Origin: Fidelibacterota bacterium
GTDB lineage: Bacteria > Fidelibacterota > Marinisomatia > Marinisomatales > TCS55
Assembly: GCA_004124385.1 (NCBI GenBank)
Contig: SCKN01000007.1
Location: 62,001 to 126,000, forward strand
Reading direction: 5' to 3'
DNA length: 64,000 bases
Shown one piece after another: positions 13,200 to 42,314 of the stretch; the first letter of the stretch is position 1, and every line of letters begins with the position of its first letter. A program made the translations under genes and the position numbers. A model generated the notes under the pieces. The model was not told where the DNA came from, ran no database searches, and saw only the letters and a list, made by a program, of their open reading frames with translations.

Positions 13200-14294
13200 T
13201 TAAGAACCAAATATGATACCAGCAATTTGATTGGCAATTATAATTGGACTACCTGAATTTCGATTTGTTAGGATTATTATGCTCAAATTTTCTATTGGAT
13301 ATCTATGGTAAACATTCCTGAATCCGCGTGTAGTTCCAGTATGCCCAACACGGTTACGATTACTATATGAATCTAAACGCCATCCAAATCCATAACCTGT
13401 TTCAACACCATTTGAGAGTTTTCCGGATGTAAATGCTTCATTCAAAATTTCGAGTGATACAAGTTTATCTGTGTATAAGCTTTGATCCCATTTAAGCATA
13501 TCATTTAAAGATGTATAAATACCGCCATCTCCAAGGACAGCGCTGGTTAAACTTTGATCATCCAGAGAAAATTCATCTCCTTGAAGGGAATACCCAAATG
13601 CCCGATTGCTTATAGATGAAATTCCATTTTCGAATGCTACCGAATTTGACATGTCCAGTGGTGCAAAAATATTTTCTTCAAGAAATTCTGCATATCCGTT
13701 GCCTGAAACTTCCTCAACAATCATGGCTAATAATGCAAAACCTGAATTACTATATTGATATTGGGTTCCTGGCGTGAAATATGTGTAGTCCAAATTCATC
13801 ATCATATTTAGGACATCCACATCTTTAACCTGCATTGTAGTATTTTGGAGAATTAATTCTTCATAATCAACTAATCCTGATGTATGATTTAAAAGATGAC
13901 GAATGGTAATGTTACTTCCATATGGTGGAAAATTTTGAAAAATTTCCGTAAGAGAACTTGTATAATCTAACTGGTCCCGGCTTTTTAATATCATTATGGA
14001 CATGGCAGTAAATTGCTTTGTTATAGAAGCTAATCTAAAATTTGTTTTTGCTGATATATTATACCCTATTTCCAAATTTGCTATTCCATATCCTTTAGAA
14101 TAAAGAACTTCATTATTTTTGACAATTAATAATGCAGCACCCGGTACATATCCATCATCATAATCATACAGCAATAAATCGATTGCTACATTGTTTAATT
14201 CTCTTACATTGATATTTGATTTATCTTGGTCACAAGATAAATGGACGAAGCAAAGAATGATTATTATTAAAACGAATAGTGTCGTTTTTTTCAT
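13200..14294 (-). CDS. Lipoprotein serine hydrolase of beta-lactamase/S12 (D-peptidase) family
   Basis: 364 aa. The N-terminus (MKKTTLFVLIIIILCFVHLSC) ends in a lipobox-like L-S-C, so it is probably a lipoprotein. The class C-type motifs are all present: S-I-T-K (LASITKQFTAMSIMIL, about 91-106), Y-S-N (YQYSNSGFALLAMIVEEVSG, about 180-199) and H-T-G (RVGHTGTTRGFRN, about 316-328). The S12 family includes D,D-carboxypeptidases, D-aminopeptidases and esterases. In this operon a D-amino-acid peptidase acting on wall fragments is the likeliest role (inference). It ends 11 bases before the M14 gene and starts 13 bases after the permease stop. Confidence 0.85.
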   Translation of the reverse strand: MKKTTLFVLIIIILCFVHLSCDQDKSNINVRELNNVAIDLLLYDYDDGYVPGAALLIVKNNEVLYSKGYGIANLEIGYNISAKTNFRLASITKQFTAMSIMILKSRDQLDYTSSLTEIFQNFPPYGSNITIRHLLNHTSGLVDYEELILQNTTMQVKDVDVLNMMMNLDYTYFTPGTQYQYSNSGFALLAMIVEEVSGNGYAEFLEENIFAPLDMSNSVAFENGISSISNRAFGYSLQGDEFSLDDQSLTSAVLGDGGIYTSLNDMLKWDQSLYTDKLVSLEILNEAFTSGKLSNGVETGYGFGWRLDSYSNRNRVGHTGTTRGFRNVYHRYPIENLSIIILTNRNSGSPIIIANQIAGIIFGS

Positions 14295-14307: not shown

Positions 14308-15678
14308 TTATTTTTTTACTTTCCAAAGATAATAAAAGGTCCCGCTCGCAGTTAATGCAAGTCCAATTAATGATGGGATAAATGCAGTAATTAATGTAAT
14401 TATAAAAAATGCCGAATAAAGAATAAGAACAACAATCATACTCCAAGGATACAGAAGTGCTTTATAAGGTCGTTCTTTATCGGGCCATTTTTTACGTAGA
14501 ACATAAATAGCACCAAATGTTAGTAAATTGAAAATTGTGCTCGTAGCAGAAAAGAAATCAATTATTATTTCATATGCGTTGGACCCGCCCATGCCTGATT
14601 GTGAATAGGTGGAAATAACAGAAAAAACTAGCAAGACACTGGCCCAAATCCCTTGGCCAATGAGTGCATTATTCGGCGTGCGAAAAACAGGATGGAGTTC
14701 TTTAAAATTTTCAAAAAATAATCCATCTCTCGCCATGGCATGCCAGGTACGACTTTTGCATAAAATCTGAGTACTTATATTTCCAAATGCATTTACAGCT
14801 ACTGCGACGGATATTAGAATACCACCCGTGGCTCCGAGAACGACCTTCATAGCTGCAGTTGCAACCCATTTATTTTCAGTAATTGCCTGAACATCTAATT
14901 GAAATAAATATCCAAGATTTGTTCCAATATATAGTAGCATCACTCCGCCTATACCAAAAAAGAGTGAGAGTGGAAGTGTCTTTTGCGGGTTCTTCACTTC
15001 CTCTGCCATATATGTTGCGCCTTCCCAACCGCTGAAAGCAAAGAAAGAATATCGTAAAGCAGCTCCCACAGCCAGGACTGTTTCCCAACCAAAGGTTTCG
15101 GGCCAAAGTGGATTTACGAAATTTTGAACATTTCCTGTTGAGAATGATGTGAGGGTCATTCCAATAATTGCACCCAATGCACCTACTTTTATGACACTGA
15201 AGAACACTTGAAATTTCCCACTAATACTGACACCAAAAAGATTAATTCCTGTCAATGTCCAAATGGTTATAAGTGAAATAATAAATGTGACTGGAAGATT
15301 AAAGGGAGTACCCATTGAAATTTCCCAAATAGCATTCAAATATTCAGTAAATACCAATGCAACAGCTACAATAGAAGCTGTTTCAGATACAAAAAACATA
15401 GCCCATCCTCGGATGAAAGCAATATATGGACCGTAGGCTTCTTTCAAGAAAACATAAGGGCCACCGGATTTAGGCATCATAGCTGTTAGTTCAGCATAAA
15501 TAACAGCTCCAAAAATGGTAATGATTCCGCCGATAACCCACACGAGACCATACAAGGATGTGCAGCCTACCAACGCCATGATGGGAGCCGGTGTACGGAA
15601 AATCCCCGAACCGATAATTCGGCTGATCACAATGGCGACTGACTCTTTGAGTCCTAGTTCTTGTTTATAATCAGTCAT
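14308..15678 (-). CDS. APC-superfamily amino-acid permease
   Basis: 456 aa with about twelve hydrophobic helices. The first helix region carries the APC substrate motif (VAIVISRIIGSGIFRTPAPI, about 14-33; G-S-G-I-F is the unwound binding segment), then AELTAMMPKSGGPYVFLKEA and FFAFSGWEGATYMAEEVKNP. These match the LAT/SteT/YfnA-like branch, which exchanges or imports neutral amino acids. It sits between the NamZ gene and the S12 hydrolase with gaps of 5 and 13 bases, inside the wall-degradation run, so uptake of liberated L- or D-alanine or another wall amino acid is a sensible inference. The true substrate is unknown. Confidence 0.88.
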   Translation of the reverse strand: MTDYKQELGLKESVAIVISRIIGSGIFRTPAPIMALVGCTSLYGLVWVIGGIITIFGAVIYAELTAMMPKSGGPYVFLKEAYGPYIAFIRGWAMFFVSETASIVAVALVFTEYLNAIWEISMGTPFNLPVTFIISLITIWTLTGINLFGVSISGKFQVFFSVIKVGALGAIIGMTLTSFSTGNVQNFVNPLWPETFGWETVLAVGAALRYSFFAFSGWEGATYMAEEVKNPQKTLPLSLFFGIGGVMLLYIGTNLGYLFQLDVQAITENKWVATAAMKVVLGATGGILISVAVAVNAFGNISTQILCKSRTWHAMARDGLFFENFKELHPVFRTPNNALIGQGIWASVLLVFSVISTYSQSGMGGSNAYEIIIDFFSATSTIFNLLTFGAIYVLRKKWPDKERPYKALLYPWSMIVVLILYSAFFIITLITAFIPSLIGLALTASGTFYYLWKVKK

Positions 15679-15683
15679 AAAGT

Positions 15684-16970
15684 TTATTCATACAGATGAT
15701 AAGCAGATGATTTTTCATTGAATAAATTAAGAGATGAATCATAGAGGCTCATTATATCATCAGCATTTTTTAACATATTATTTCTCAATAAATCTTCATT
15801 ACCCCAGAGCCTTTTTATAGATGATTTTATTTGAAGTCGATCAGAATAAAGTTCATTAATTGTTAAAATCAATTGTAAACCAGTTTCCACTGAATTGTAT
15901 TGTCGAAAATTAATAATTTTGCAAAAAACCCCATGGCATAACTCATTTTCATATTTGGGGTATAATGATTTTCCCTGCATGGAAACGGGTGTGAAAGAAA
16001 TCGGCTCAAACACAATGCCCGGGAGCTGTTTTTTATTCATTGTTTGAGCAAGTTTTTTACCATCTATCCAAGGAGCCCCAATCCATTTAAAAGGAAAAAG
16101 TGTACCTCGACCTTCGCTTAAATTGGTTCCTTCAATTAAACACATTCCCGGATAAATAACGGCTGTTTCCACATCAGGGATATTTGGAGATGGTGGAATA
16201 AGAGTAAGGTCGGTTTCGTTAAAATATAGATTTTTCTTCCACCCTTCCATTTTGATAACAGTTAATTCCGGTAAAGCTGAAATCCATTCTTCCCCAACGA
16301 TTATTTTCGCTAATTCTCCACAAGTTAAACCATAACGAATTGGAATGGGATACATACCCACGAATGATTTATGATTCATATTCAAAATTGGACCTTCAAT
16401 TTTTCCAGCAATTGGATTAGGTCTGTCCAAAATAATTACATGAATGCCTGATTCAGCAGCAGCTTCCATCACCAAACCCATTGTAGAAATGTATGTATAG
16501 AAGCGTGCACCTACATCTTGTATGTCATAGATAATTAAGTCCAATCCTTCAAGCATTTCTGGGGTTGGTTTTCGAGTTTTCCCATACAAACTAAAGATTG
16601 TTGGAAAATCTTCAGATTTTTTATCGGCAATTTTCTGTCCTGCAGAAACATTGCCGTAAAAGCCATGCTCTGGAGCGAAGATGGTATTCAAATAGACATC
16701 ATCTAATTGCATGAATATTTCATAATTCGGAATGCCTTTTTTATCTACACCAGTGTGATTAGTTACTAAACCAATATTTTTTCCGGTAATTAAATGGAGT
16801 TGTTTAGCTACCAACACATCCAATCCTGTTAAAACATGAACTTTTTCAATAGGAGGGGCGTCTTTATTATTATAAAACTCTAATTGTTCTTTGTGTATGG
16901 ATATCCGACTCTCTTGAGCAATTGTATTTGAGAAAATGAGGATTATAAAAACGAAAAAATGTAATTTCAT
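15684..16970 (-). CDS. namZ: Exo-beta-N-acetylmuramidase NamZ family (DUF1343, GH171)
   Basis: 428 aa with a signal peptide (1-18, ending NTIAQ). The DUF1343 body starts near residue 47 (GLDVLVAKQLHLITGKNIGL, VTNHTGVDKKG), with TIFAPEHGFYGNVSAGQK, YDIQDVGARFYTYISTMG, LDRPNPIAG, RYGLTCGELA and LSEGRGTLFPFKWIGAPW, the family's characteristic blocks. NamZ removes MurNAc from the non-reducing end of peptidoglycan glycans. The mature N-terminus carries SIHKEQLEFYN, nearly identical to SIHQQQLEYYN in the otherwise unrelated GH18 enzyme encoded just upstream. The start overlaps the GH18 stop by 4 bases. No sorting domain, so it is probably periplasmic. Confidence 0.9.
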   Translation of the reverse strand: MKLHFFVFIILIFSNTIAQESRISIHKEQLEFYNNKDAPPIEKVHVLTGLDVLVAKQLHLITGKNIGLVTNHTGVDKKGIPNYEIFMQLDDVYLNTIFAPEHGFYGNVSAGQKIADKKSEDFPTIFSLYGKTRKPTPEMLEGLDLIIYDIQDVGARFYTYISTMGLVMEAAAESGIHVIILDRPNPIAGKIEGPILNMNHKSFVGMYPIPIRYGLTCGELAKIIVGEEWISALPELTVIKMEGWKKNLYFNETDLTLIPPSPNIPDVETAVIYPGMCLIEGTNLSEGRGTLFPFKWIGAPWIDGKKLAQTMNKKQLPGIVFEPISFTPVSMQGKSLYPKYENELCHGVFCKIINFRQYNSVETGLQLILTINELYSDRLQIKSSIKRLWGNEDLLRNNMLKNADDIMSLYDSSLNLFNEKSSAYHLYE

Positions 16971-19405
16971 TTAATTAAACTAACCTTGCGAAAGTCTAAA
17001 GCAGATCCGGAAGAAATGGTAACGATATATACACCGGAAGAAACATTTTGGCCTTTATTATTTAAACCGTTCCAATTCCACGAGTTTATTCCTATTGCAG
17101 ATGGTGGTATTGATTCATTTTTTATTGTTCGGCCCAATATATCAGTGATAAGAATGTTAGACACTTTATTCATGTGAAGGTTTTCAAATACGATTGTTAT
17201 AGATGAATTAGATGGATTTGGAAAAATAGATTTTATAGACACAGTTTTTGGAAGATTCGTATTAGTTGATTCATGTGATGTTAACTGTTCTTCATAAAAG
17301 TTGACAATTTTTATCATCAGATCATTCCGTTTGGATTCTGGATAAATAGCCTCAAAACCAACGGATAAATGGACAATGCCTCCAATATCATTACCTGACC
17401 CGAATGTGCCTATATATTGAACTCCCATCCCGCCTCTGGTGTTATAATCAACACCATCATATTTAGCACAAATTTCCGCACTGCCACTTGGTTTTATTCC
17501 ATCTGGCCAATCAACATTATAGGTGCCGTGGCTGCCATTATCAAATGTGATATTGTTAATATTATTGAAAATAGAATTGTTTACACCGAAACCACTATAT
17601 GTTCCATTTTGACCTCCAGCTGCATCGGAAATGTATTCAGCTTTCAGGTAATTATTATAAAATGATTGATCAATACTTGTGCCTTGGGATGATAAATCAT
17701 ATCCGACTTCTGATCCAGACAAAAACAAAAATCCACCATTTTCCAAATAATCTTTTACCTGATCTTGTTCTTCATAGTTGAAGGTACTATTTGCAGTCCC
17801 TTCTTCACCCAGTATCCAATCAACAAATGTATAATTCAATTCAATTTCATTATGTATTACTGCTTCATTTGTTGCTGAATCAAATGCTAATCCACTGTTA
17901 GCTATTGCGTCACCGTGTTGACGAATAAAATTGTGAGTATTTGTCGTTCCGCTGGCGCGATCAAAACCATTTACAATTAAACAGGGAACGGGCGAACTTG
18001 AGGGGACAATACCCAAATATTCTGTTTGAGGACTGGCGCCAAAATCATTCAAAGCAACCACAGCAAAATAATACGTTTCACCTTCATTCAAGTTCTCAAT
18101 AATGACTGGTCGTTGATTAGAGATTATTATGGTATCCACATTGGTGTAATTTAAATAAGATCGCAATACTGCAAATTCACTTGCCGTATTTGCACCGTTA
18201 AAATCAATCATTATATCGCCGTTTCCCACGTTGCGAATAGATAATTTTCCAGGAGTCGTAGGCGGTGCAGTTGCTCCAAATTTATGTGCCAGCAAATCCC
18301 ATAATTCTGTTTCAGAGCCATCATACCCCAACGCCCAGATACCCACACCTTTCAGGTTTTGATTCATGGCAAAATCGTATTTTAAAGAGAGTGACAGGCT
18401 ATCATCGTACCAGCCTTGAACCCATCCAGAATTCTGATATTTGTACCAGGGAGTTTGTGATTGTGCATGCCATAGTTTACCAAATGAAAGTGCATTACTT
18501 TCCATTTCAGAATAAAATTTAGCACTACCCGTTCCTGTTGTTGATGCTCCTGCAGTTCCTGAAGAAGTGGGCCATTCAAAGCCATAATAGGGAAGACCTA
18601 ATATAATTTTATCTGCTTGGTTATTCGTCTTATTTAAATAATCATTTACAGTCCAGGTGATTGTATAACCAGATCCACTCAATGGAGAATTGGGTCCCGA
18701 TACTGAACTGCCGCTGTAATGATATGCATAACCCATAATAAATAATCCGTCACTTATGGTTGCCAATGCATCATAATCCCAGGCATTACTCCAATCTACT
18801 GCCGGCATAGCCAACGTGACCTGCGATCCGGGAATTGCTGTCTCGAATGCGTTTTTGAGATCAGTAATAAACTGTACCATATTATTTTTTTGCGATGCTG
18901 GCATTCCTTCAAAATCAATATTGACACCATCGGCACCTGCTGATGAAACAGAATTAACTAAATTATTGATCAGAGTTTGTCGGTAACTGCTGCTGCTCAA
19001 CAGAGTTGCAATATCACTGCTGTTAAATAAAATAGCTGTTAGAACAACATCCGTTCCAGCCGCATGAGCCGTATTAATGAGCGAAGTGGTCGGCCAGCCG
19101 TGATCATCGCTGATGCCACCCGTAGCAGTTACTTCTGCACCAAAATAAGCGAGTGTGGAAATGAGGTTGAAATTGTAATTGGTCCAAGCAGTTCCCATCC
19201 AATAAGGATGATATCCAAATACTTCATGAGAAGGAGTTGAATTGTTATTTCGATAATAAGGAAGCAATGGAATGGATTTTAATTGTTCATTTGACTCTGT
19301 ATAATGAATATTATAGTATTCTAACTGTTGTTGATGAATGCTGGGTTTATGTTCACCAAAAACAAAACATAATATTGAAAAAAAGATTAAAATAGGTTTC
19401 TTCAT
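16967..19405 (-). CDS. Secreted GH18 glycosidase with Fn3 and type IX sorting domains
   Basis: 812 aa with a signal peptide (1-17). The GH18 barrel (about 65-375) starts EVFGYHPYWMG, has the catalytic strand GADGVNIDFEGM (D159...D164-x-E166, E166 the acid/base) and FIMGYAYHYSG, LGLPYYGFEW. The YHPYW start and overall order recall the SleL/YaaH branch, which cuts peptidoglycan, more than classical chitinases. An Fn3 domain (about 380-468) follows, then a ~240-residue Rossmann-like domain (PCLIVNGFDRASG) as seen in FCB-phylum secreted hydrolases, and a sorting domain (IFPNPSNSSITIVF ... NVSSGVYIVTISSG ... KVSLIK). It overlaps the S66 stop and the NamZ start by 4 bases each. Peptidoglycan glycan as substrate is inferred from neighbours. 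Confidence 0.85.
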   Translation of the reverse strand: MKKPILIFFSILCFVFGEHKPSIHQQQLEYYNIHYTESNEQLKSIPLLPYYRNNNSTPSHEVFGYHPYWMGTAWTNYNFNLISTLAYFGAEVTATGGISDDHGWPTTSLINTAHAAGTDVVLTAILFNSSDIATLLSSSSYRQTLINNLVNSVSSAGADGVNIDFEGMPASQKNNMVQFITDLKNAFETAIPGSQVTLAMPAVDWSNAWDYDALATISDGLFIMGYAYHYSGSSVSGPNSPLSGSGYTITWTVNDYLNKTNNQADKIILGLPYYGFEWPTSSGTAGASTTGTGSAKFYSEMESNALSFGKLWHAQSQTPWYKYQNSGWVQGWYDDSLSLSLKYDFAMNQNLKGVGIWALGYDGSETELWDLLAHKFGATAPPTTPGKLSIRNVGNGDIMIDFNGANTASEFAVLRSYLNYTNVDTIIISNQRPVIIENLNEGETYYFAVVALNDFGASPQTEYLGIVPSSSPVPCLIVNGFDRASGTTNTHNFIRQHGDAIANSGLAFDSATNEAVIHNEIELNYTFVDWILGEEGTANSTFNYEEQDQVKDYLENGGFLFLSGSEVGYDLSSQGTSIDQSFYNNYLKAEYISDAAGGQNGTYSGFGVNNSIFNNINNITFDNGSHGTYNVDWPDGIKPSGSAEICAKYDGVDYNTRGGMGVQYIGTFGSGNDIGGIVHLSVGFEAIYPESKRNDLMIKIVNFYEEQLTSHESTNTNLPKTVSIKSIFPNPSNSSITIVFENLHMNKVSNILITDILGRTIKNESIPPSAIGINSWNWNGLNNKGQNVSSGVYIVTISSGSALDFRKVSLIK

Positions 19406-20421
19406 TCAGAATTCCTGGTTGGAGATTCTAGAATACGTATCAATTTATTGTCTGCGTCAATTTCAGCCAATACACCAATAGGTAAAGTGACATTGTATTT
19501 GTAATGACCAAAAGGGTAATTAGCTAAAACAGGTACACCTAAATTAGTAAAATACTGCTGTAAGACATCCATCATTTTAAAACTCTCAATGTCATCTGGT
19601 GGTTCATCCGATCTACGAGTAAATTTTCCTAATATGACACCTTCAAGATTTTCAAATTTTCCCGCTAATTTAAGTTGGGAAAGATAGCGGTCGATACGGT
19701 AAGGAGCTTCGCCTACGTCTTCCATGAATAGAATTTTCCCATCCGTTTCAATTTCGTATGGTGTTCCCATGAGAGCAGCGATCAGTGAAAGATTTCCGCC
19801 AATAAGTTCACCTTTTCCTGTACCTCCATGGAGTGTCATTACGGAATCTTTTAAACCGTATGATTCCAGTTCGATGATATAGCCATTGGCATTTTCTTTT
19901 TCTATGGCTAGCCAAAAATAATTATCGGAAATAGGGGAAAGATTATCTTCGCTTCCTAATCCATACATGGGGCTTGGCGTATGAAAAGTTGTAAGTCCGG
20001 TCATTTTATTAATGGCGAGATGCAGCCCGGTTATATCACTGAATCCCACTAAAATCTTTGGATTTGATTTTATAATATCATAATCCAACATGTCCAAAAT
20101 ACGTGTTATGCCGTACCCACCTGTTCCGGGAAAAATGGCTTTCACCTGTGGATGTGTCCATGCTGCCATGAATTCTTCAGCACGTCTTTCATCTGTCCCG
20201 CCAAGATAACCATGCTTACGAAATAAATCTTCAGCCTGAATTATAAAATATCCTCTCTCCTCCAATCGTTCTTTTGCCAATGACATTCTTGTTTTATCCA
20301 AAGGACCTGAAGGGGCAACAAATATTATTGTATCTCCTGGAGACAAACGATCAGGGACAGTGCTCAAAAGAAAAGAACTAATTAAAAGTGTTAGGATAAT
20401 TCCAGGATGAATTCGAACCAT
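19402..20421 (-). CDS. Exported L,D-carboxypeptidase (peptidase S66)
   Basis: 339 aa. The N-terminal hydrophobic stretch (MVRIHPGIILTLLISSFLLS) is a signal peptide or anchor absent from the second S66 protein at 22272-23201, so this copy probably works in the periplasm. S66 motifs: SPGDTIIFVAPSGPLDK, FPGTGGYGITRILDMLDYD, and the nucleophile block ILVGFSDITGLHLAI (Ser in G-F-S-D). Later come HGGTGKGELIGGNLSLIAAL and LFMEDVGEAPYRIDRYLSQL with the second catalytic Glu. S66 enzymes cleave D-Ala from L-Ala-D-Glu-DAP-D-Ala tetrapeptides (or act as MccF). Its stop overlaps the GH18 start (4 bases) and its start is 3 bases after the DdpX stop. Confidence 0.88.
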   Translation of the reverse strand: MVRIHPGIILTLLISSFLLSTVPDRLSPGDTIIFVAPSGPLDKTRMSLAKERLEERGYFIIQAEDLFRKHGYLGGTDERRAEEFMAAWTHPQVKAIFPGTGGYGITRILDMLDYDIIKSNPKILVGFSDITGLHLAINKMTGLTTFHTPSPMYGLGSEDNLSPISDNYFWLAIEKENANGYIIELESYGLKDSVMTLHGGTGKGELIGGNLSLIAALMGTPYEIETDGKILFMEDVGEAPYRIDRYLSQLKLAGKFENLEGVILGKFTRRSDEPPDDIESFKMMDVLQQYFTNLGVPVLANYPFGHYKYNVTLPIGVLAEIDADNKLIRILESPTRNSE

Positions 20422-20424
20422 TGG

Positions 20425-21108
20425 TTATTCTATAATTGTGAATTTTTCTTTTGTAACTTTATACGGAAATGCATCAAAATGCCACCATTCGGTAGAGATG
20501 GAACTAAACCCCGCTTGGGTCATGGCATTTCTTAAAATGAGTCTGTTATCAACTTGTTCTTGAGTTAAATCGCCTGCAATCAATAAAGAATCCTCAAGTC
20601 TTGGAAAGGCCAACTCTCCAAAATAATCATAATGGGTTCCCATATCTAAAGGATTACCGTTTTTATAAGTGATGGTTAGATCCACTGCTGCACCAAAGTT
20701 ATGAATGGAGCCTGTATTTGGGTTGGCGACAAAATTAGTTCGTTCTGATTCCGGAACATCGCTCAACGTATTCCAAAGTGTCCATTGAATCGAACGAGGT
20801 CGGAGTCCATCATAAATCAATAAGAGTAAATCAGGATATTTATTTTTTAATAATACGTGGGCCTGTGCAAGCATTTGAGCTGGAACTCTACGCATATAGC
20901 AAGTTTCCAAATCGCCGTAAACATCTATTCCCATGAAATTATCTGTAGAAGAATATTTTAGTTCCACAAGAAGTGTGGGGTCCAATTCTTGGACATTCAC
21001 CAAGTTATGTTGTTGTATTGTTTTTGTTGAAATAATTAACCCTGTTTGATTGCATCCAATGAATATCAATGCAAAAACTGCTAATATGATTTTCTGTTGA
21101 AATGTCAT
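20425..21108 (-). CDS. ddpX: D-alanyl-D-alanine dipeptidase, lipoprotein (VanX/DdpX, M15D)
   Basis: 227 aa from ATG 21108. A longer frame from 21141 would overlap spmB; the inner ATG gives a neat lipoprotein signal (MTFQQKIILAVFALIFIGC). VanX motifs are intact: VNVQELDPTLLVELKYSSTD, NFMGIDVYG, YDGLRPRSIQWTLW, the zinc block SIHNFGAAVDLT (S-x-H-x6-D) and STEWWHFDA (E-x-W-H, catalytic Glu and third ligand). The enzyme hydrolyses D-Ala-D-Ala. In vancomycin-resistant bacteria that protects the wall; in E. coli DdpX is used to feed on the dipeptide. There are no VanH/VanA partners here, and wall-degrading neighbours are present, so the nutritional role is favoured. Confidence 0.9.
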   Translation of the reverse strand: MTFQQKIILAVFALIFIGCNQTGLIISTKTIQQHNLVNVQELDPTLLVELKYSSTDNFMGIDVYGDLETCYMRRVPAQMLAQAHVLLKNKYPDLLLLIYDGLRPRSIQWTLWNTLSDVPESERTNFVANPNTGSIHNFGAAVDLTITYKNGNPLDMGTHYDYFGELAFPRLEDSLLIAGDLTQEQVDNRLILRNAMTQAGFSSISTEWWHFDAFPYKVTKEKFTIIE

Positions 21109-21119
21109 AAATAATAAAC

Positions 21120-21668
21120 TTATCCAAAAAAGAATCGACAAATGTATACAGCGCTAAATACACCCACTGCATCAGCAAATAAGCCTGCTACTAAGGCATG
21201 ACGCGTTTTGCGAATGCCCACGGATCCAAAATAAACAGCCAAAACATAAAAGGTGGTTTCGGTAGAACCAAACATGGTTGCTCCAATTTTTGCTATGAGG
21301 GAATCAGGACCATGTACATTTATTAAGTCGGTTAATAGACCTAATGAGCCACTGCCGGATAAAGGACGCATTAAAGCCAATGGTAGGTTTTCTGGAGGAA
21401 AGCCAATCACCGTTAAAAATGGTGAAAGAAGATTTAACAAAAGATCAAGAGCTCCTGATGCACGAAACATTCCTATGGCTACAAGTATTGCAACCAAAAA
21501 AGGTATAATCCTTACTGCAATAGTGAATCCGTCTTTTGCACCTTCAACAAACGATTCATACACTTTGATTTTTTTAAAGATTAGTCCATAGAATGGAATG
21601 CCAACTAGTAAAAAAGGAATAATATATTTTGAGAATTCGTTGATAACGCTGACAATTGAATCAATCAT
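21120..21668 (-). CDS. spmB: SpmB-like membrane protein (nucleoside-recognition/Gate domain)
   Basis: 182 aa, mostly hydrophobic, with GSGSLGLLTDLINVHGPDSL and MFGSTETTFYVLAVYFGSVG, the core of SpmB (spore maturation protein B) and the Gate domain of nucleoside transporters. Translation is coupled to spmA by an ATGA overlap, and a perfect Shine-Dalgarno (GGAGGTGAT) lies inside the last spmA codons, the strongest ribosome site I saw in the window. In Bacillus subtilis spmA-spmB are in an operon with the D,D-carboxypeptidase gene dacB and affect spore cortex. Here they sit between S66/S13 and M15 wall peptidases in a non-spore-forming Gram-negative. Transport of a wall-derived molecule is speculation. 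Confidence 0.85.
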   Translation of the reverse strand: MIDSIVSVINEFSKYIIPFLLVGIPFYGLIFKKIKVYESFVEGAKDGFTIAVRIIPFLVAILVAIGMFRASGALDLLLNLLSPFLTVIGFPPENLPLALMRPLSGSGSLGLLTDLINVHGPDSLIAKIGATMFGSTETTFYVLAVYFGSVGIRKTRHALVAGLFADAVGVFSAVYICRFFFG

Positions 21669-22261
21669 ACATCACCTCCATGAGAGAAGGAGAAGCGCTT
21701 CATTTTTTCTAAAGATTTAACTGCAATCACGGCAGCTATCGTGGACATTGTTGTCGCAATGATAGTTGTAATAAAAATTTGACTGGCATGTGCACCCATT
21801 AATGCAACGACAGTTGCGGGTAAAATAAGTTGAACGCTGGATGTATTAATCGCCAGAAACATACACATGGCATTGGTGGCTGTTTCTTTGTTGGGATTGA
21901 GTTCTTGCAATTCTTCCATCGCTTTTAAACCAAGTGGTGTTGCAGCATTTCCTAAACCTAATATATTCGCAGACATATTTAATACAATTGATCCGATAGC
22001 CGGATGATCTTCCGGCACATCTGGGAAAAGACGAATGGTTATAGGTCGCAACCCTTTGGCAATAATCCGGATTAATCCGGATTCTTCCGCAATTTTCATA
22101 ACACCTAACCAAAGTGCCATTATGCCAATTAATCCAATAGCCAAATTCACAGCCACTTTAGCCATATCAATTGCCGCTTCTGTAACAGCGTCAATATTGC
22201 CGGTGAATGCACCCACAACGACGCCAATAAGCATCATTCCAAACCATATGTAATTCAGCAT
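21665..22261 (-). CDS. spmA: SpmA-like membrane protein (nucleoside-recognition/Gate domain)
   Basis: 198 aa with several transmembrane helices: MLNYIWFGMMLIGVVVGAFT, AVNLAIGLIGIMALWLGVMK, NMSANILGLGNAATPLGLKA and NTSSVQLILPATVVALMGAH are SpmA signature blocks. The N-S-x-N-x-L-G-x-G-N-A-A-T-P segment is the Gate-domain motif. It pairs with spmB by a 4-base overlap, and an AAGGAA ribosome site precedes its start. The biochemical role of SpmA/SpmB is not established in any organism I know of; they are membrane partners linked to wall maturation. The upstream gene is the cytoplasmic S66 peptidase (10-base gap). Confidence 0.87.
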   Translation of the reverse strand: MLNYIWFGMMLIGVVVGAFTGNIDAVTEAAIDMAKVAVNLAIGLIGIMALWLGVMKIAEESGLIRIIAKGLRPITIRLFPDVPEDHPAIGSIVLNMSANILGLGNAATPLGLKAMEELQELNPNKETATNAMCMFLAINTSSVQLILPATVVALMGAHASQIFITTIIATTMSTIAAVIAVKSLEKMKRFSFSHGGDV

Positions 22262-22271
22262 TTATTTTTCC

Positions 22272-23201
22272 TTATAAAACCGATGATTCTAATAATGTTA
22301 ATGATGGTGAATTTGCTTTTGTATCCAACTTAACTGGAATTGATATGGGCAATGTTGCTTGGTATTTCCCATGACCACATGGGAAATTCGCTATGATAGG
22401 TATATCTAAATCTCCACAAACATCCATAACAATTTCATCTGTTGATTTTCCAAAAGAAATCTTTTGATCTTTCATGCTTATCAATTCGCCAATGATTAAT
22501 CCTTTTATGTTTTCAAATATTCCTGCATTGCGTATATGTACCATCATGCGGTCAAAGGAATATAAATATTCATCAATATCTTCTAGAAACAAAATTACAC
22601 CATTTGTATTTAACTGTTCATTCGTTCCCAGTCTATTAGCCAGTAGACATATATTCCCACCCCAAAGGGAACCTTCAGCTACTCCGGGTTTTAAAACTCG
22701 AGAAGGTAAATTACTTGGAGGTTGAATATTAACATATTCGTTCCCAGACAACGTTTTTTCCATTAATTCATAATTATAATCCACCATACCATTTTTATAA
22801 GTTGTTAACATAGGTCCATGAAAAGTAACAAGATCTGTTTGTTGAGTAATTGATATAAGAATAGCGGTAATGTCGCTATAACCCATAAAAATTTTGGGAT
22901 TCACTTTTATTTGATCATAATTTATAAGCGGTAAAACTCTGTTGGCTCCATAGCCGCCTCTTGCACATATAATGGCGTCAATGTCCGGATTGGCAAACAT
23001 GTCATTTATATCGTTAGCTCTTTCTTGGGGAGTGCCTGCAAACGGGCCGGATTTCAGATAATTGCTAGTTCCAAATTCCAATTGATAACCTTTTGTTTTA
23101 AATAGCTGGTGGACTTTTTCTAGAGTTTCTTCTTCCATCCAAAAGGAGGGACTGACAATACCAATTGTATCACCTTTCTTTAATGGAGATGGTTTAATCA
23201 A
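22272..23201 (-). CDS. ldcA: Cytoplasmic L,D-carboxypeptidase (peptidase S66, LdcA type)
   Basis: 309 aa without a signal peptide. S66 blocks: PLKKGDTIGIVSPSFWMEEE, IICARGGYGANRVLPLINYD, IFMGYSDITAILISI (nucleophile Ser in G-Y-S-D), GSLWGGNICLLANRLGT and LFLEDIDEYLYSFDRMMVHI (Glu of the Ser-His-Glu set), and FPCGHGKYQATLPI carrying the His. LdcA removes the terminal D-Ala from the murein tetrapeptide to give the tripeptide, the substrate of MpaA, whose homolog lies at 41597-42313. It sits 1 base after the DacB stop and is likely co-translated. This copy is unlike the exported S66 at 19402-20421, so the pair may cover two compartments. Confidence 0.9.
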   Translation of the reverse strand: MIKPSPLKKGDTIGIVSPSFWMEEETLEKVHQLFKTKGYQLEFGTSNYLKSGPFAGTPQERANDINDMFANPDIDAIICARGGYGANRVLPLINYDQIKVNPKIFMGYSDITAILISITQQTDLVTFHGPMLTTYKNGMVDYNYELMEKTLSGNEYVNIQPPSNLPSRVLKPGVAEGSLWGGNICLLANRLGTNEQLNTNGVILFLEDIDEYLYSFDRMMVHIRNAGIFENIKGLIIGELISMKDQKISFGKSTDEIVMDVCGDLDIPIIANFPCGHGKYQATLPISIPVKLDTKANSPSLTLLESSVL

Positions 23202-23202
23202 A

Positions 23203-24615
23203 TTATAGTTCAGCTAATATTGTAATGATTTTATCTTGTAGGTTGCGATAGGGTTTGGTTTTTCCTATAAATCCATTCATTAAAATGGAAAAGACTAATG
23301 GTTCGCCAGACTTTGTGAAAACATAACCAGACAAACAACTAACGCCAGATAAAGAACCCGTTTTAGCAATGATACGATTTCCATTTTTGCCATTCATTCT
23401 ATTTTTCAATGTACCAACTCCTCCGCTAGATAGGATTGAGATTAAATTATCCCAAATTTGATTTGTGTTAAAAGCCCATGATAATAATTGAATAAAATGT
23501 TCCGGACTTGAATAATTATAGCGTGAAACACCCGATCCATCAGACATATAAAATGTAGTCGTATCCAAATCAACTTCATTGTGCAAAAACGTTTTTATGG
23601 CGGTTAAACCATTTTGCCATGTCCCTGTTGTATCCGTTGCTTCGTGTCCAATTAATTTTACCAGTAATTCAGCAGTAAGATTATCACTTTCTTTCATAAG
23701 ATTATTAAGGGTAACGATTAATGGTTTAGATGTGTGAGATACCAACAAACGACCATTGCCTGAATATTCCCTTTTAAATATGTTATTTATTTCTCGTCCA
23801 TGATTTGACAGCATTTCTTTAAAGACAAATCCGGTAAATGCAGTTGGGTCATCTATATTTCGACTGAACGTATCTGCTGCTGACGTGTCCATCACCATTC
23901 CAGAAATAGTGAAATCATTTGTACTGTTAGCCCAATTCCGATCGATTTTAAAATCTATAAATCCTGTAGTATCATTCACCGTCAAAGACTGATTATTTAT
24001 CATTATATATTCTGTTTTAGGATTTGTCGTGTAATTGACAGGTGAGCCGAGGGTCGCTGGACGTATATAAAAATCGATACAATTATCATTTACAGAAAGT
24101 GCGCTAATCTGTGCTGCATATTTCCAGGGACCTTCATCCCACATCCAGCCTTCTCCGAAACGCTGGGTATCCATAAGTGATTCATCCAAAAATAAAGTAT
24201 CTATTTTATTTAATTTTTCAGATATCACTCGTGCTAACGAATCGAGACTATTTAAGGTTAGATCGGGATCGCCGCCACCCACAAGGTAAAGATTGTTATT
24301 TTCTTGAAAAATAGATGTGGTGAATGTATATCCTATATCCAGCAGTGCTAGGGCAGAAATACATGTATATAATTTTGTGTTACTGGCAGGATTAAAAAGT
24401 GAATTAGCATTTAATTCATAAAGTGTATTATTATTCTTTAGGGAAACGATTTTAATACCCAGATTTGTAGATAATCCTGAATCATCGATAACCTTTTGAA
24501 AAGCAGATTGAAGAAAATTGCTCCCTGAAACTTTATACATTTTTGGTGTACTTACACACCCTGTAATAAGGAATAAAATAAATATATTTATATAAAATTG
24601 TTTTAATCGAATCAT
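23203..24615 (-). CDS. dacB: D-Ala-D-Ala carboxypeptidase/endopeptidase, S13 (DacB/PBP4), lipoprotein
   Basis: 470 aa. The N-terminus ends in a lipobox (ILFLITGC). Penicillin-binding motifs: S-x-x-K in FNPASNTKLYTCISALALLD (about 76-95), S-x-N-like SDGSGVSRYNYSS (about 360-372) and K-T-G in RIIAKTGSLSGVSCLSGYVF (about 422-441). The spacing between the first two, about 280 residues, is the large insertion typical of S13. These enzymes remove D-Ala from pentapeptides and cut 4-3 cross-links. It overlaps the M23 stop by 4 bases. In a scavenging locus it would open and trim wall fragments; ordinary wall maintenance is the alternative. Confidence 0.92.
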   Translation of the reverse strand: MIRLKQFYINIFILFLITGCVSTPKMYKVSGSNFLQSAFQKVIDDSGLSTNLGIKIVSLKNNNTLYELNANSLFNPASNTKLYTCISALALLDIGYTFTTSIFQENNNLYLVGGGDPDLTLNSLDSLARVISEKLNKIDTLFLDESLMDTQRFGEGWMWDEGPWKYAAQISALSVNDNCIDFYIRPATLGSPVNYTTNPKTEYIMINNQSLTVNDTTGFIDFKIDRNWANSTNDFTISGMVMDTSAADTFSRNIDDPTAFTGFVFKEMLSNHGREINNIFKREYSGNGRLLVSHTSKPLIVTLNNLMKESDNLTAELLVKLIGHEATDTTGTWQNGLTAIKTFLHNEVDLDTTTFYMSDGSGVSRYNYSSPEHFIQLLSWAFNTNQIWDNLISILSSGGVGTLKNRMNGKNGNRIIAKTGSLSGVSCLSGYVFTKSGEPLVFSILMNGFIGKTKPYRNLQDKIITILAEL

Positions 24616-26729
24616 TTTAGATACAAAACTTTCTGTGAAACCATTTTATTATTTGGAGAAATCACATGGATAAAATACACACCAGAAGATATATTATTCA
24701 TAATATTGGCTGGAATTTGTAATTGATAATTCATTTCGTTTTTAATAAAGTTTGAATATTCCCAAATCAACTGACCCATAATATTATACAATCGAATTGA
24801 GTATTTTCCCTGTATTCCATTAATATTAATAATACCTTTGTTATTAAATGGGTTTGGATAAAATCTCACATTAAACTCATCAGGAACGATATCAATTTCA
24901 TCATCAATCTCTACACTTATACCGGTGATGAAATGCGTAATACGAAAGAAATAATCTCTTCTTAAATCATCATTAAAAAGTTCTAATGGAATAGATGAAA
25001 TTATAAAAGGTGTACTAGCAGAAGCGACTGCTAAAATATGACCGTCTTGATCCTGTATTATGGGGTATACATTTTCATTGTTCGGTGTCAATGCAAATAT
25101 ATTTAAACTGTCAAAAAGGGATTCATTTATAATTTCATTTACATTGAAATCAGCGAAAGGTTCTCCTACACCAAACAGTTGGTTTGGTAATTGAATATTC
25201 CCATCAAATGAAATGCCGAGAGAGTCTAAAAATTGAACGCCTATGCTCGTTGATTTAAAGGAAGAAATTGATTTTGAACCCAAAATACTAAACGCAGTAT
25301 CTAAAAAATAATCAACTAATGAATTCGTCCAAACTAAATCTTCATTTCCTGAAAAGATATATGGAATTGTCCCATCGAGGATTTGCGAAACTGAATCTGT
25401 GAATATTGAATGATGAACAGTATTCATTCCAGTTTCAAGTTCGTCTGCTATTACGCCCGCATTACTGATGAATGTTTCGATGGATGGTGTGGAAATATTA
25501 TATGCATCAATGAATAGAAGACCTTGATTATCCTGATTTTTACGAAAGACATAAATATCAGAAAAGTCACTTTCATTAGGAAATGGAGCATCGTCAACCG
25601 CTGTCATTTTGAAAAAACCCGTACTATTGGAAAATGAACCGGCTAAGTATTCCGTCATATCTGCAGTTAAAATTGATTCAGTATGATTATTATACCATTG
25701 ATCCAAATCATAACTGAAATACAATCTGTAACCAGCTAAATCGTCTTCCGAGTTGGCCGCCCATTTTAGTAAGAAACCATTATCTTCGGCTTGGATAGAT
25801 AGGAGTTGAGGAGGGGTAGGTGGAATAAAATCCGGTTCCACAACTTCAAAGTTTATATCAGTTGTATCTGCATTGAAATACTGATCATAAACCATAATCC
25901 TCGCAATATAAAATCCTGGATCCCAATTAGAAACATTTAGAAAATAATCTCCGTAAACATTATTCGTAATTATGTAAATATAGGTACCCGTATTTGAACC
26001 GTTAAAGTATACATTTTCAATATAGTTATTGGTAGATGGAATGAAGTCAAACTCAAAAGGAAAACGCGGACCGAAAACGCTTTCGCCTGACTGATTTAAA
26101 ATTTCGTATCCAATTTTATAAATTCCATTATTATCACCAATGGGTCCATCATCAGTACGATCTGCTGCTTTACACACAATATCAATTTGACCAAATACAC
26201 GATTATTTGAAAAGTACACATTAGAATTATTTTGATAGAAACGAACCCAATCTAGATGAGGATTGTCATCATCGATTAGAGGTGAAATCCCTCCTGTAGA
26301 TCTTATGGCATTTCTTTCAGACCCAGGATACCCATCTTTAAAATGAATATGGTTCCAGGAATTTGTCCAACCCAATACTGTAACATACGCTTCTACAGAA
26401 TCTCCTACACTTAATGAGTTATTTGGAATAACATGTACATACGCATATCTACCTGCTCTTACCCAAGAATTAATTCCGTATTGACTTGATGTTCCAATGC
26501 TTGTGATTACTTCATCAATAACAGAATACACTGGATTCCCTTCTGATAGATGAATATCAATTCCATCATGGAAGTGATCAATATCTCCCGATGACCCTGA
26601 CCTACATTCGCAAAATGTTCCATTAATCCAGTGTTGCTGGTTAAAGGGTTCGCATGGCCAATTATATGTTTGTGATAAAATCAAACCAGATATACAAAAA
26701 ATGAAAAAAACGACAGAACGGTAAATCAT
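24612..26729 (-). CDS. Secreted M23-type metallopeptidase with type IX sorting domain
   Basis: 705 aa with a signal peptide (1-20). The M23 (lysostaphin/LasA-like) domain occupies about 20-140: DIDHFHDGIDIHL (H-x3-D zinc motif) and SWNHIHFKDGYPG (H-x-H). Then come beta-rich domains including an Fn3 (about 300-395), a Rossmann-like segment (about 400-600: GLLFIDAYNIS) resembling that in the GH18 protein, and a sorting domain (NVRFYPNPFNNKGIININ ... ISSGVYFIHVISP ... KVLYLK). The family cuts peptide cross-bridges. The catalytic domain is interrupted by a short insertion relative to minimal M23 domains, so activity is probable, not certain. Three bases separate its start from the upstream stop. 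Confidence 0.8.
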   Translation of the reverse strand: MIYRSVVFFIFCISGLILSQTYNWPCEPFNQQHWINGTFCECRSGSSGDIDHFHDGIDIHLSEGNPVYSVIDEVITSIGTSSQYGINSWVRAGRYAYVHVIPNNSLSVGDSVEAYVTVLGWTNSWNHIHFKDGYPGSERNAIRSTGGISPLIDDDNPHLDWVRFYQNNSNVYFSNNRVFGQIDIVCKAADRTDDGPIGDNNGIYKIGYEILNQSGESVFGPRFPFEFDFIPSTNNYIENVYFNGSNTGTYIYIITNNVYGDYFLNVSNWDPGFYIARIMVYDQYFNADTTDINFEVVEPDFIPPTPPQLLSIQAEDNGFLLKWAANSEDDLAGYRLYFSYDLDQWYNNHTESILTADMTEYLAGSFSNSTGFFKMTAVDDAPFPNESDFSDIYVFRKNQDNQGLLFIDAYNISTPSIETFISNAGVIADELETGMNTVHHSIFTDSVSQILDGTIPYIFSGNEDLVWTNSLVDYFLDTAFSILGSKSISSFKSTSIGVQFLDSLGISFDGNIQLPNQLFGVGEPFADFNVNEIINESLFDSLNIFALTPNNENVYPIIQDQDGHILAVASASTPFIISSIPLELFNDDLRRDYFFRITHFITGISVEIDDEIDIVPDEFNVRFYPNPFNNKGIININGIQGKYSIRLYNIMGQLIWEYSNFIKNEMNYQLQIPANIMNNISSGVYFIHVISPNNKMVSQKVLYLK

Positions 26730-26732
26730 GGG

Positions 26733-27890
26733 TTATTTTGAAATTTCGTACTGAATGAAATGATTATCTAATTGTAAATAAAATGTATTACCCTGATTTG
26801 GGAAATATTTAACTCGGTTGAAAGACCCATGAAGTAGCGGATGGAATGCAATAGTATTAAAATCTGTATCATATTCCAGTAGGACCATTGATTGATAAAA
26901 ATTCCCATTTTTTCCTATACCAATTTCAAGTGCAGAAATAACAAAAATGGATTTATTGTACGTAATGATATCTAATGGAAATATTTTTTGTTCAAATTTT
27001 ATTTCGTATTTAGATGTTTGATTATCTGTGCTATAAATCATCAAATGGTCTTTATAAATCAAAATCAATTCATCTTTAAACCAAGAAATATTCTTGGGTA
27101 GTTTTTTCAGTTCAACGGGTTGATTTAAGAGTTTATAATTTTGATCAAGAAGAATAAGAACTGGTGTTTGCGTAATAGAGTTAGATTTACTATTTGTCCC
27201 AATGATAGCATAAATATTTTTGCTTGAAATAGAGAAAAAATAAGGCATCGAAAGGGGTAAATTGATTATCAATTCAGGATTTTCTATCAGTGAAAATAAA
27301 GACACATTATGGTTTTTAGTCAAATTAGCCGATTCCATTCCCAATAGAAATAAGTAATCATTTTTATCACTGGCTGTCAAAATTTTCTTTTCATGGCTCC
27401 AAGATATTTCTTCAAATAAATCAAATTCCCCTGATAATGAACCATTAGAATCAAATATTGTCACATGTTGGGTTTCAGGTAAAAGCATGAGCAAATTATT
27501 TTTTGTGAATAGTAATTTCGGTAAAGCTCCATCATATTCTTTTTCCAGTGAGTGAATAAATGATATTTGATCATCCTTTAGTAATTGAAAGGTATAATTG
27601 AGTGTATTTTGGGAATTTTCGGTAATAATAACTGCTTCAGGTTTTGTTTTTTGAGGATTAATTATGACATTAACAATATTCTCATTTCCAGATTCAAATA
27701 TGTTAACACCATTTACAGATACGTTATTGTTATTCCATGTTAGAAACGAATCACCATCCATTGGAATTTTATTTTCACCTGGATTTATACGAATATTACT
27801 TATCTCTAAAATGCGGGTTTCAGATGATATTATACTGCTAAATAATAATAAGAGTAGAATAATGTGAAATGATTTGTTTCTAGTTAACAA
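26733..27890 (-). CDS. Exported protein of unknown function, possible beta-propeller
   Basis: 385 aa. A hydrophobic signal peptide (about 8-23, IILLLLLFSSIISS) is followed by repeating stretches of hydrophobic beta-strands with Asn/Asp turns (NNLLMLLPETQHVTIFDSNG, DYLFLLGMES, KNIYAIIGTNSK, DELILIYKDHLMIYS, KSIFVISALEIG). The periodicity suggests a propeller, but no family motif was recognised. It has no C-terminal sorting domain and no lipobox, so it is probably periplasmic or loosely outer-membrane-associated. It is directly upstream of the M23 gene (3-base gap) and downstream of the GHL10 gene (61-base gap), so it belongs to the same run. Confidence 0.6.
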   Translation of the reverse strand: MLTRNKSFHIILLLLLFSSIISSETRILEISNIRINPGENKIPMDGDSFLTWNNNNVSVNGVNIFESGNENIVNVIINPQKTKPEAVIITENSQNTLNYTFQLLKDDQISFIHSLEKEYDGALPKLLFTKNNLLMLLPETQHVTIFDSNGSLSGEFDLFEEISWSHEKKILTASDKNDYLFLLGMESANLTKNHNVSLFSLIENPELIINLPLSMPYFFSISSKNIYAIIGTNSKSNSITQTPVLILLDQNYKLLNQPVELKKLPKNISWFKDELILIYKDHLMIYSTDNQTSKYEIKFEQKIFPLDIITYNKSIFVISALEIGIGKNGNFYQSMVLLEYDTDFNTIAFHPLLHGSFNRVKYFPNQGNTFYLQLDNHFIQYEISK

Positions 27891-27951: not shown

Positions 27952-29793
27952 TTATTTTAAGTAAACTAATCGTTTTGCTTTTCTGAATTTATCATTTGTT
28001 TTTAAAAACACTAGATAAATTCCCGATGCTTGTTGAACGCCTTTATCGTTTTTTCCATGCCAATCTACAATATAATCACCTGGGATCATCAGTTGATTTA
28101 CGAGTGTTGCAACTATTTTACCCTTTAAATCTGTAATAGATAAATCTACATTTCCATACGATGGGATGGAAATGGGAATGGAGGTTTTTTCGTTAAAAGG
28201 ATTGGGGTAATTATTTGAAATGATATATGTGTTTGGTAAGGGAGTGAGTGTTGAATACACTTTATTTGATGGAGTTGATTCATGCCAGAATCTATCTGTC
28301 TGGGTTGCAAAATATTGATATATTAAACCTGAATCAGCCAAGATATCAACGAACTTCACAGCTTCAGATCCATATTGTATTGAAATAATTTCACCATTAT
28401 CTATAGTTGCTGCAGGGTTCAATGATCGATATAAAATAAGCCATCCAAGATTAAGTGTTGAAGATGGATATATTGTTAATTCCATAGATACATTATCCAA
28501 TGGATTTATTGTTAATGATGGCGGTTCTATAGTTACACTATTGTTATTGGGTTTCGGTGGTGATTTTGTTTTGTTCTCAAAAAATGAATCACCTGCAGTT
28601 TCAAAGTAGTCATTGTCTTCCCAAGTACCGTAGCTAAAAAATTGAAATCCCTTAACCCAATTCAATGATCGCACTGCATTCACAATATCAGTATGTCGAT
28701 ACCAAACATTATTTTCATCTAAAACATACGAGCCTGGGCCAACGGTAAATGGTCGATCTGATTCAACGCCAGGCTGAACAAAGAGCCACCAGCATTGCGG
28801 GCAGTCATCTTCAAGCATACCGGTAAATCCATCTGCGGTTGTCCAATGATAACTCATTGGCATTATGTGATCGAGACTGCCTTCGTTAAACCATTTGGCT
28901 CCGTCTTGAAAGACTGTTCCATATCCTTGCCAACCAGACCAATTGTATTTTCCTAAAACAGCTGCAGATAATTGTACGTACGGCTTAACTGATTGAATAG
29001 AATCATGGAGTGCTTCAACAAATGAAGTAACGCTCTCACGCCACCATTCTTCCCAGGAAGTATAACCATCAGGAATTCCACCAGAATAAGGATGTAGATA
29101 GTCATATAAGTATCTACTGGACGGATTAAGAGTTAAATTATTTTGCTCCTCGATTGATATTATTCCATCCATTCTTCTGATTTCTGTTTGAGGCTCTGCT
29201 GATTGGCGACCGGTATTTGTATGTTCGTTCCAACGAACATAATCCAAATGCAAACCATCAATATCATAATTGCGAACAATTTCCATAGCAACGTCAATTG
29301 TATAATCACGAACCTCTTGTAGCCCAGGAGAAATAGATCGATATGATGTCATAGGAATTCCATCTCTATCCCTACATATCCATTCTGGGTGTTCAGCAGC
29401 AGGAGACCCGGGATACGTGCTGGATGTCTGAAATACATTAAACCATGCGTGGAGCTCCAATCCTCTTTTATGAGCTTCAATTATAGCAATTTCCAATGGA
29501 TCATATCCTGGATATTGATATCCGGAATAATATCCCCAAGGTTCGTAAGAAGACTCATAATAAGCTGTCCCGCTTTGTCGCACCTGAAATATAACAGCAT
29601 TCATATTTGCTGCTTTATGGTCATCCATAATTTGAATTATTTTTGCAATATTTTGTCCGGGATCAGCGTTTGAATATATATGATCCCATGTGATCACCCA
29701 CGATGCCCGGAATTCAATATTGTTTAATTGAGCAAAAGCAAGTTGAATTATGAATATGGGTAAGATTAATAGGCTTTTGAATATTTTTATCAT
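27952..29793 (-). CDS. Secreted glycosyl-hydrolase-like 10 (GHL10/DUF187) protein with sorting domain
   Basis: 613 aa with a signal peptide (1-21, ending LAFAQ). The GHL10 barrel (about 24-400) begins IEFRASWVITWDHIYSN and contains NMNAVIFQVRQSGTAYYESS, YDPLEIAIIEAHKRGLELHA, YDIDGLHLDYVRWNE (near residue 187) and SLDHIMPMSYHW. These match the YngK/DUF187 family, predicted glycosidases often found with wall-active enzymes. A beta-sandwich (about 420-510) and a sorting domain follow (SNNYPNPFNEKTSIPISIPS ... ASGIYLVFLKTN ... RLVYLK). It is the first gene of the long minus-strand wall-enzyme run and starts in the divergent AT-rich region shared with the FG-GAP gene. Substrate unknown; a glycan of peptidoglycan is inferred from context. 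Confidence 0.82.
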   Translation of the reverse strand: MIKIFKSLLILPIFIIQLAFAQLNNIEFRASWVITWDHIYSNADPGQNIAKIIQIMDDHKAANMNAVIFQVRQSGTAYYESSYEPWGYYSGYQYPGYDPLEIAIIEAHKRGLELHAWFNVFQTSSTYPGSPAAEHPEWICRDRDGIPMTSYRSISPGLQEVRDYTIDVAMEIVRNYDIDGLHLDYVRWNEHTNTGRQSAEPQTEIRRMDGIISIEEQNNLTLNPSSRYLYDYLHPYSGGIPDGYTSWEEWWRESVTSFVEALHDSIQSVKPYVQLSAAVLGKYNWSGWQGYGTVFQDGAKWFNEGSLDHIMPMSYHWTTADGFTGMLEDDCPQCWWLFVQPGVESDRPFTVGPGSYVLDENNVWYRHTDIVNAVRSLNWVKGFQFFSYGTWEDNDYFETAGDSFFENKTKSPPKPNNNSVTIEPPSLTINPLDNVSMELTIYPSSTLNLGWLILYRSLNPAATIDNGEIISIQYGSEAVKFVDILADSGLIYQYFATQTDRFWHESTPSNKVYSTLTPLPNTYIISNNYPNPFNEKTSIPISIPSYGNVDLSITDLKGKIVATLVNQLMIPGDYIVDWHGKNDKGVQQASGIYLVFLKTNDKFRKAKRLVYLK

Positions 29794-42313: not shown

Positions 42314-42314
42314 T

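Follow-up and report, generated by a model that had tools for sequence, protein, structure and literature searches.

Introduction

In Bacillus subtilis, the spmA and spmB genes follow dacB, and loss of spmA or spmB raises the water content of the spore core (PMC13188902). According to a survey from 2012, there were no enzymatic or structural data for SpmA or SpmB (PMC3533761), and a paper from 2017 described their mechanism as not understood (PMC5376575). Here we analyze an spmA-spmB pair (encoding SpmAB) in a stretch of 64,000 nucleotides, hereafter the window, from the 2.09-Mb genome of a marine bacterium of the Neomarinimicrobiota. On balance, it seems probable that SpmAB is an inner-membrane secondary transporter, elevator-like in form, that imports a stem-peptide product in a wall-digesting pathway. 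Spore formation is not known from the phylum of the host.

The window and the B. subtilis dacB-spmA-spmB genes are alike in that the same membrane pair stands beside an exported D-Ala-D-Ala carboxypeptidase. In the window, however, this carboxypeptidase belongs to peptidase family S13 rather than S11, enzymes of families S66 and M15D, NamZ and secreted hydrolases have been added, and the setting is a Gram-negative wall-utilization locus rather than sporulation. Likewise, in the E. coli genes yjiH-yjiG-iadA a Gate pair is followed by a gene for a dipeptidase acting on iso-peptide bonds, but YjiHG is very divergent (~24-25% identical to a natural fusion of SpmA and SpmB), the peptidase is a different one, and the function is uncharacterized. 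Murein peptides are recycled by LdcA, MpaA, and YcjG in E. coli and by YkfABC in B. subtilis. While LdcA-like S66 enzymes, MpaA, LysA, NlpC/P60, and epimerase-like genes are also found around SpmAB, here SpmAB takes the place in which one would look for Opp or AmpG. No Opp-type peptide-binding protein was found in the host genome, and one is present in 11 of 14 control genomes.

Results

The spmAB gene run

An earlier note on this DNA had placed spmAB in one coupled run with dacB (the PBP4 gene below), two S66 peptidases, and ddpX. Open reading frames together with Pfam and NCBIfam matches confirmed this minus-strand run, with every one of these genes in its place, and its core genes either overlap by 4 bp or are spaced by 1-13 bp. 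In order of transcription, these genes are as follows.

23203..24615, minus strand: PBP4-type D-Ala-D-Ala carboxypeptidase (S13), periplasmic, lipobox LITGC (TIGR00666, 228 bits against a cut-off of 108; SxxK and KTG motifs)
22272..23201, minus strand: S66 L,D-carboxypeptidase, LdcA-like, without a signal peptide (cytoplasmic) (Pfam S66; Ser/Glu/His motifs)
21665..22261, minus strand: SpmA, the first of two Gate halves in the predicted transporter (Pfam Gate, 5e-15; pairs in alignment with the first half of naturally fused SpmA-SpmB)
21120..21668, minus strand: SpmB, second Gate half, both termini predicted to be periplasmic (Pfam Gate, 5e-13; NCBIfam YjiG model below cut-off)
20425..21108, minus strand: DdpX/VanX-like D-Ala-D-Ala dipeptidase (M15D), lipoprotein (Pfam M15, 3e-24; VanX structure 1r44, 3e-10)
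19402..20421, minus strand: second S66 carboxypeptidase, with a signal peptide, exported (Pfam S66; MccF/LdcA structures)

The adjacent spmA and spmB genes each encode a single Gate domain (PF07670), and the family motifs GLGNAATP (SpmA) and RPLSGSG and GSTETTF (SpmB) are present. A Pfam scan of SpmA and SpmB found Gate alone and neither the N nor the C domain of Nucleos_tra2. Both domains of family S66 are present in the LdcA-like protein, together with the Ser, Glu, and His of the active site, and its nearest solved chain is 6uuk, a muramoyltetrapeptide carboxypeptidase. In DdpX, the zinc motifs SxHxxGxAxD and ExxH are intact, as SIHNFGAAVD and EWWH, and translation likely starts at ATG 21108 rather than at TTG 21141 (open frame 20425-21141).

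A natural fusion of SpmB to DdpX

In two genomes, SpmB is fused in frame to DdpX in a protein of 395 residues (L043:9959-11146 and L103:9974-11161). Since these genomes are distinct and the SpmB parts of the two fusions are 81% identical, an assembly error is unlikely; the two fusions probably stem from one evolutionary event rather than two. Free copies of DdpX next to SpmAB carry a lipobox, which both fused copies have lost, and the zinc motifs are kept in both. The two short positively charged loops of SpmB, compared across 101 orthologues, predict that its N and C termini are both outside, and the fused DdpX would therefore be periplasmic. A structure model of the SpmB::DdpX fusion was set aside on account of its poor DdpX part (predicted local distance difference test, pLDDT, 68), and a long SpmB-containing open frame in genome G224 was dropped as a further fusion candidate, having no recognizable enzyme.

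Predicted fold

Natural fusions of SpmA to SpmB occur in other bacteria, and we modeled one of them (L092) with AlphaFold, using an alignment of 31 natural fusions. A mixed alignment, in which rows of separate SpmA and SpmB were combined with the fusions, was rejected because it apparently placed SpmA on the wrong half. The L092 model (pLDDT 88.5; predicted template modeling score 0.83) predicts one fold that resembles elevator-type transporters. In a Foldseek search of the PDB, all of the 23 best matches are secondary transporters of this type, from the DASS (such as VcINDY), TRAP (SiaQM), CNT, and AbgT families, many with a probability of >0.9. Like these proteins, SpmAB would consist of halves with polar helix breaks. 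In both halves, many of the polar residues that show the highest conservation lie at these breaks (N103, N107, N113, and T116; S332, S363, T366, and T367). It differs from them in that it is split over two genes, in that a search with its sequence profile found no relative among solved structures, and in that the structural matches have E values of >0.001. The model suggests that the fold of SpmAB is transporter-like. The earlier note had proposed that a wall-derived small molecule moves through the Gate domains; the predicted elevator-like fold of the natural fusion is in keeping with this, while transport, its direction, and the substrate are still predictions.

Association with wall hydrolases in the host phylum

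SpmA is present in 88 of the 149 genomes that make up our sample of the host phylum. SpmA and S66 occur together in 65 of these genomes, SpmA alone in 23, S66 alone in 10, and neither in 51 (Fisher test, 2e-12, uncorrected for kinship). Of the 65 genomes with both, 22 have an S66 gene no more than 3 kb away from spmA, compared to 0.27 expected from random placement, and in the order of the host S66 is near spmA in 17 of 20 genomes with SpmA. Three genomes of the host's own genus lack SpmA, S66, S13, and M15 altogether, indicating that these four are gained and lost as a set.

For the neighborhood counts, hidden Markov models (HMMs) seeded from proteins of the window and related loci were used to compare genes within three genes of SpmAB to genes farther away in the same loci. 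In the phylum, 60 of 364 near genes encode wall hydrolases, compared to 3 of 416 far genes, which is the enrichment of wall peptidases beside spmAB that the earlier note had expected from a genome-context search. The commonest neighbor is LdcA without a signal peptide. One relative (L038) has the whole set in a single operon, lysA-mpaA-M23-GATase-PBP4-ldcA-spmA-spmB-ddpX-S66-permease-S12-M14, so that lysA and mpaA share the uninterrupted strand run of SpmAB.

Some further features were also observed. Many related operons contain, in their upstream part, a class I glutamine amidotransferase of 217 residues (L038:12650-13303, L043:6397-7050, L045, L103, and others) with a weak match to gamma-glutamyl hydrolase (C26). 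Two large amidohydrolase genes adjoin a second copy of SpmAB in genome G029 (L077:10538-14853). Two loci (L300 and L301) from genomes without SpmA encode M15D and S12 beta-lactamase-like domains in one protein of ~790-810 residues.

Association in other phyla

Further loci were taken from a genome-wide scan for SpmB, of which the 80 best relatives were used, and were sampled around genomes of the Bacillota, Pseudomonadota, and Bacteroidota. In the other phyla of the scan, 11 of 308 near genes and 1 of 430 far genes encode wall hydrolases, rates that are not unbiased because the scan yields close relatives of SpmB only. In the Bacillota, the corresponding counts are 15 of 227 (all S11) and 1 of 363; 15 of the 38 sampled loci have a DacB of family S11 close to spmA, and S11 is found in none of the 363 far genes. 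Adjacency of S66 as a general rule for the Bacillota was rejected: in the phylum of Tissierella, an S66 gene next to SpmB was seen in a single genome among the 120 sampled, and the usual partner there is S11.

On a maximum likelihood tree of SpmB (156 rows), the link to S66 requires 9 changes, of which at least 7 are forced by well-supported branches, be they gains or losses. The orientation of S66 varies as well: it is upstream and co-directional in the order of the host, divergent in families f18 and f23, and downstream in Tissierella and Romboutsia. In three loci from the order of the host (L049, L058, and L059), the PBP4-S66-SpmA-SpmB arrangement is the same but its SpmB belongs elsewhere on the tree, suggesting that SpmAB was replaced within a functional unit. 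The SpmB of a Kangiella locus (L108) clusters with the clade of the window and was probably acquired by transfer.

SpmB proteins of Prochloron, Paraprochloron, and Synechocystis (L100, L102, L106, and L107) fall in the same tree group as that of the window, to which they are 73-76% identical, and have no adjacent S66. Their sequences make transfer of a window-like SpmB into cyanobacteria likely.

Other neighbors of SpmAB include an alanine racemase (L138), a glutamate racemase (L050), and LysA (L123). In a Bacteroidota locus (L265:8430-10591), an SpmA-SpmB fusion directly follows genes that resemble those for DgcN and L-Ala-D/L-Glu epimerase, both well below their equivalog cut-offs. The DgcN-DgcA route turns D-Glu into L-Glu (PMC10845958), and these neighbors suggest a link of SpmAB to D-Glu. 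This case and an M14 gene in L266 are single examples from selected Pfam scans and thus anecdotal. An amidohydrolase beside SpmAB in L161 was dropped as a peptidase candidate, being a dihydroorotase.

The wider locus and the spmB ribosome site

The run extends beyond its core in both directions, upstream to 29793 and downstream to 11965. The order of transcription is GHL10, an unknown protein, and the M23-like gene ahead of PBP4, and GH18, NamZ, a permease, S12, and M14 behind the second S66. A second group of wall genes lies to the right of the run.

27952..29793, minus strand: GHL10 glycosidase-like protein with a sorting tail of the type IX secretion system (T9SS), exported (Pfam GHL10, 2e-38; NCBIfam T9SS tail)
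26733..27890, minus strand: unknown protein of the run (no Pfam match)
24612..26729, minus strand: M23-like endopeptidase, T9SS tail (Pfam M23, 4e-4, below cut-off; Por_Secre_tail)
16967..19405, minus strand: GH18 glycosidase, T9SS tail (domain scan)
15684..16970, minus strand: NamZ exo-N-acetylmuramidase family, signal peptide (Pfam NamZ_N and NamZ_C)
14308..15678, minus strand: LAT-type amino acid permease (Pfam AA_permease_2; structures of the y+LAT, xCT, LAT1, and Asc-1 class)
13200..14294, minus strand: S12 serine peptidase, D-aminopeptidase/AmpH-like (below family cut-offs)
11965..13188, minus strand: M14 zinc carboxypeptidase, T9SS tail (domain scan)
40292..41575, plus strand: N-acetylmuramoyl-L-alanine amidase (Amidase_2), T9SS tail (domain scan)
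41597..42343, minus strand: MpaA murein tripeptide amidase (NF007897, 240 bits against a cut-off of 157)
42315..43571, minus strand: LysA diaminopimelate decarboxylase, overlapping mpaA (TIGR01048, 363 bits against a cut-off of 298)
21671..21679, minus strand: ribosome site of spmB, the 9-mer GGAGGTGAT, inside the end of spmA (single copy in the window)

Based on its predicted gene products, the region is best described as a peptidoglycan-utilization locus. Between 33158 and 45102, a TonB receptor, a PorV-like protein, and the amidase with its T9SS tail are encoded on the plus strand, followed by mpaA-lysA on the minus strand. These genes are probably part of the same wall-utilization locus as the SpmAB run. 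An M20 dipeptidase-like gene is found near the amidase, mpaA, and lysA. Past M14, where the SpmAB strand run ends (10431-11930), a ribokinase gene (above cut-off) adjoins one for a short KdsD/KpsF-like SIS isomerase. At 35831-39223, a protein of 1130 residues has no Pfam match and a weak, below-cut-off NCBIfam match to a phage tail tube-like model.

The earlier note had also read the perfect ribosome site of spmB as a sign of controlled stoichiometry. The 9-mer GGAGGTGAT is indeed present, with 6 nt between GGAGG and the spmB ATG. Among 11 relatives checked, an exact GGAGGTGAT was found in none and a comparable GGAGG site at spmB in 2 (L041 and L044), and some (L103 and L101) have none. Given this lack of conservation, we rejected the strong site as evidence for a stoichiometry signal.

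Discussion

The reading that we favor is that SpmA and SpmB would be the two halves of one secondary transporter. Outside the cell, secreted GH18, GHL10, M23, M14, amidase, and NamZ enzymes would break the wall polymer, and in the periplasm PBP4, DdpX, and the exported S66 would trim the peptides and free D-Ala. SpmAB would then carry a stem-peptide product across the inner membrane, the likeliest candidates being D-Ala and small peptides of the wall, and cytoplasmic LdcA (S66), MpaA, and LysA would degrade what enters. Gene content, the recurrence of the association, the fusion, and the active-site motifs are read from sequence; fold and topology are predicted, and transport, its inward direction, and the substrate are inferred. 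If SpmAB does transport, D-Ala would be our tentative first choice of substrate, a wall di- to tetrapeptide would be somewhat less probable, and another wall amino acid would be the least probable of the three. D-Ala would suit S13, S11, M15D, S66, and Alr, and a peptide would suit MpaA, LysA, and IadA.

Because the association with hydrolases recurs and the fold of the natural fusion is predicted to be elevator-like, neither a lack of wall peptidases beside spmAB nor a predicted complex devoid of a transport path is what we found. The general wall-related role that the earlier note assigned to SpmAB holds up to the extent that the pair is found in several phyla beside enzymes of the unrelated families S13, S66, M15D, and S11, but the link is not universal.

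Several observations weigh against our reading. By probe HMMs, no wall hydrolases were found among the near genes of 13 sampled Pseudomonadota loci (0 of 78) or 20 sampled Bacteroidota loci (0 of 120). Among the 82 immediate neighbors outside the phylum S66 is the commonest (5), yet 113 families are represented, many of them unrelated. The fold was modeled on a distant natural fusion rather than on the pair from the window, and no Foldseek match in the PDB falls under an E value of 0.001, the best having an E value of 0.0026, a template modeling score of 0.41, and a root-mean-square deviation of 11 Å. The neighbors disagree on one substrate, because DdpX releases D-Ala and a peptide or diaminopimelate is what MpaA and LysA would suggest. 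The wall amino acids could also pass through the LAT permease that this operon encodes. The known phenotype of SpmAB in B. subtilis and C. perfringens concerns the water content of the spore core. In the open-licence papers searched, we found no biochemical evidence for SpmAB from any organism; likewise, in searches of these papers on SpmAB in connection with peptidoglycan recycling, a transporter, or D-alanine, no title or abstract put forward a role of the kind that we favor.

It is rather unlikely that SpmAB instead transports nothing and serves as a platform in the membrane on which wall hydrolases such as PBP4, DdpX, and DacB are anchored or regulated. A platform would account for the direct fusion of SpmB to DdpX and for the different exported carboxypeptidases that adjoin SpmAB. 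It would not, however, call for the predicted fold of a secondary transporter or for invariant polar residues at helix breaks inside the membrane part, and the linked enzymes are not the exported ones alone, since cytoplasmic LdcA, MpaA, LysA, and racemases are among them.

An exporter or ion-coupled channel, which might expel cytoplasmic D-Ala freed by LdcA or move ions or water during dehydration of the spore core, likewise seems improbable to us. The most frequent neighbor in the phylum, LdcA without a signal peptide, would suit such a role, and in mutants of spmA and of spmB the spore core contains more water (PMC13188902, PMC5376575). Against this, the D-Ala-releasing DdpX that is fused to SpmB would lie on the periplasmic side, and the S13, S11, and M15D partners act outside, where they are a better fit for uptake.

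That SpmAB transports a wall-unrelated substrate, such as a nucleoside or a general metabolite, and sits in wall operons incidentally is unlikely: the name of the Gate family is reminiscent of nucleoside recognition, unrelated neighbors are common, and the Pseudomonadota and Bacteroidota samples gave no wall hydrolases by probe, but the links to S66 arose repeatedly and independently on the tree, the DdpX fusion is kept in two genomes, SpmA and S66 co-occur in the phylum, and the Gate domain stands without nucleoside transporter N or C domains.

Returning to import by an elevator-like SpmAB, a bolder version of this reading is possible, though we hold it to be doubtful. SpmAB may represent a new class of split elevator transporter for stem-peptide products, which in some marine bacteria would bring along a periplasmic dipeptidase of its own (SpmB::DdpX) to cleave and import, and in spore formers SpmAB may clear the D-Ala freed by DacB. 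Clearance of D-Ala during cortex maturation would explain the dacB-spmAB operon.

SpmA and SpmB are named spore maturation proteins without a known activity. The fusion to DdpX, the four peptidase families, and the predicted fold make their function testable, and named substrates can now be tested in E. coli and B. subtilis. If our reading is true, SpmAB would fill a gap in wall recycling by providing uptake in those bacteria that have no peptide importer of the Opp type.

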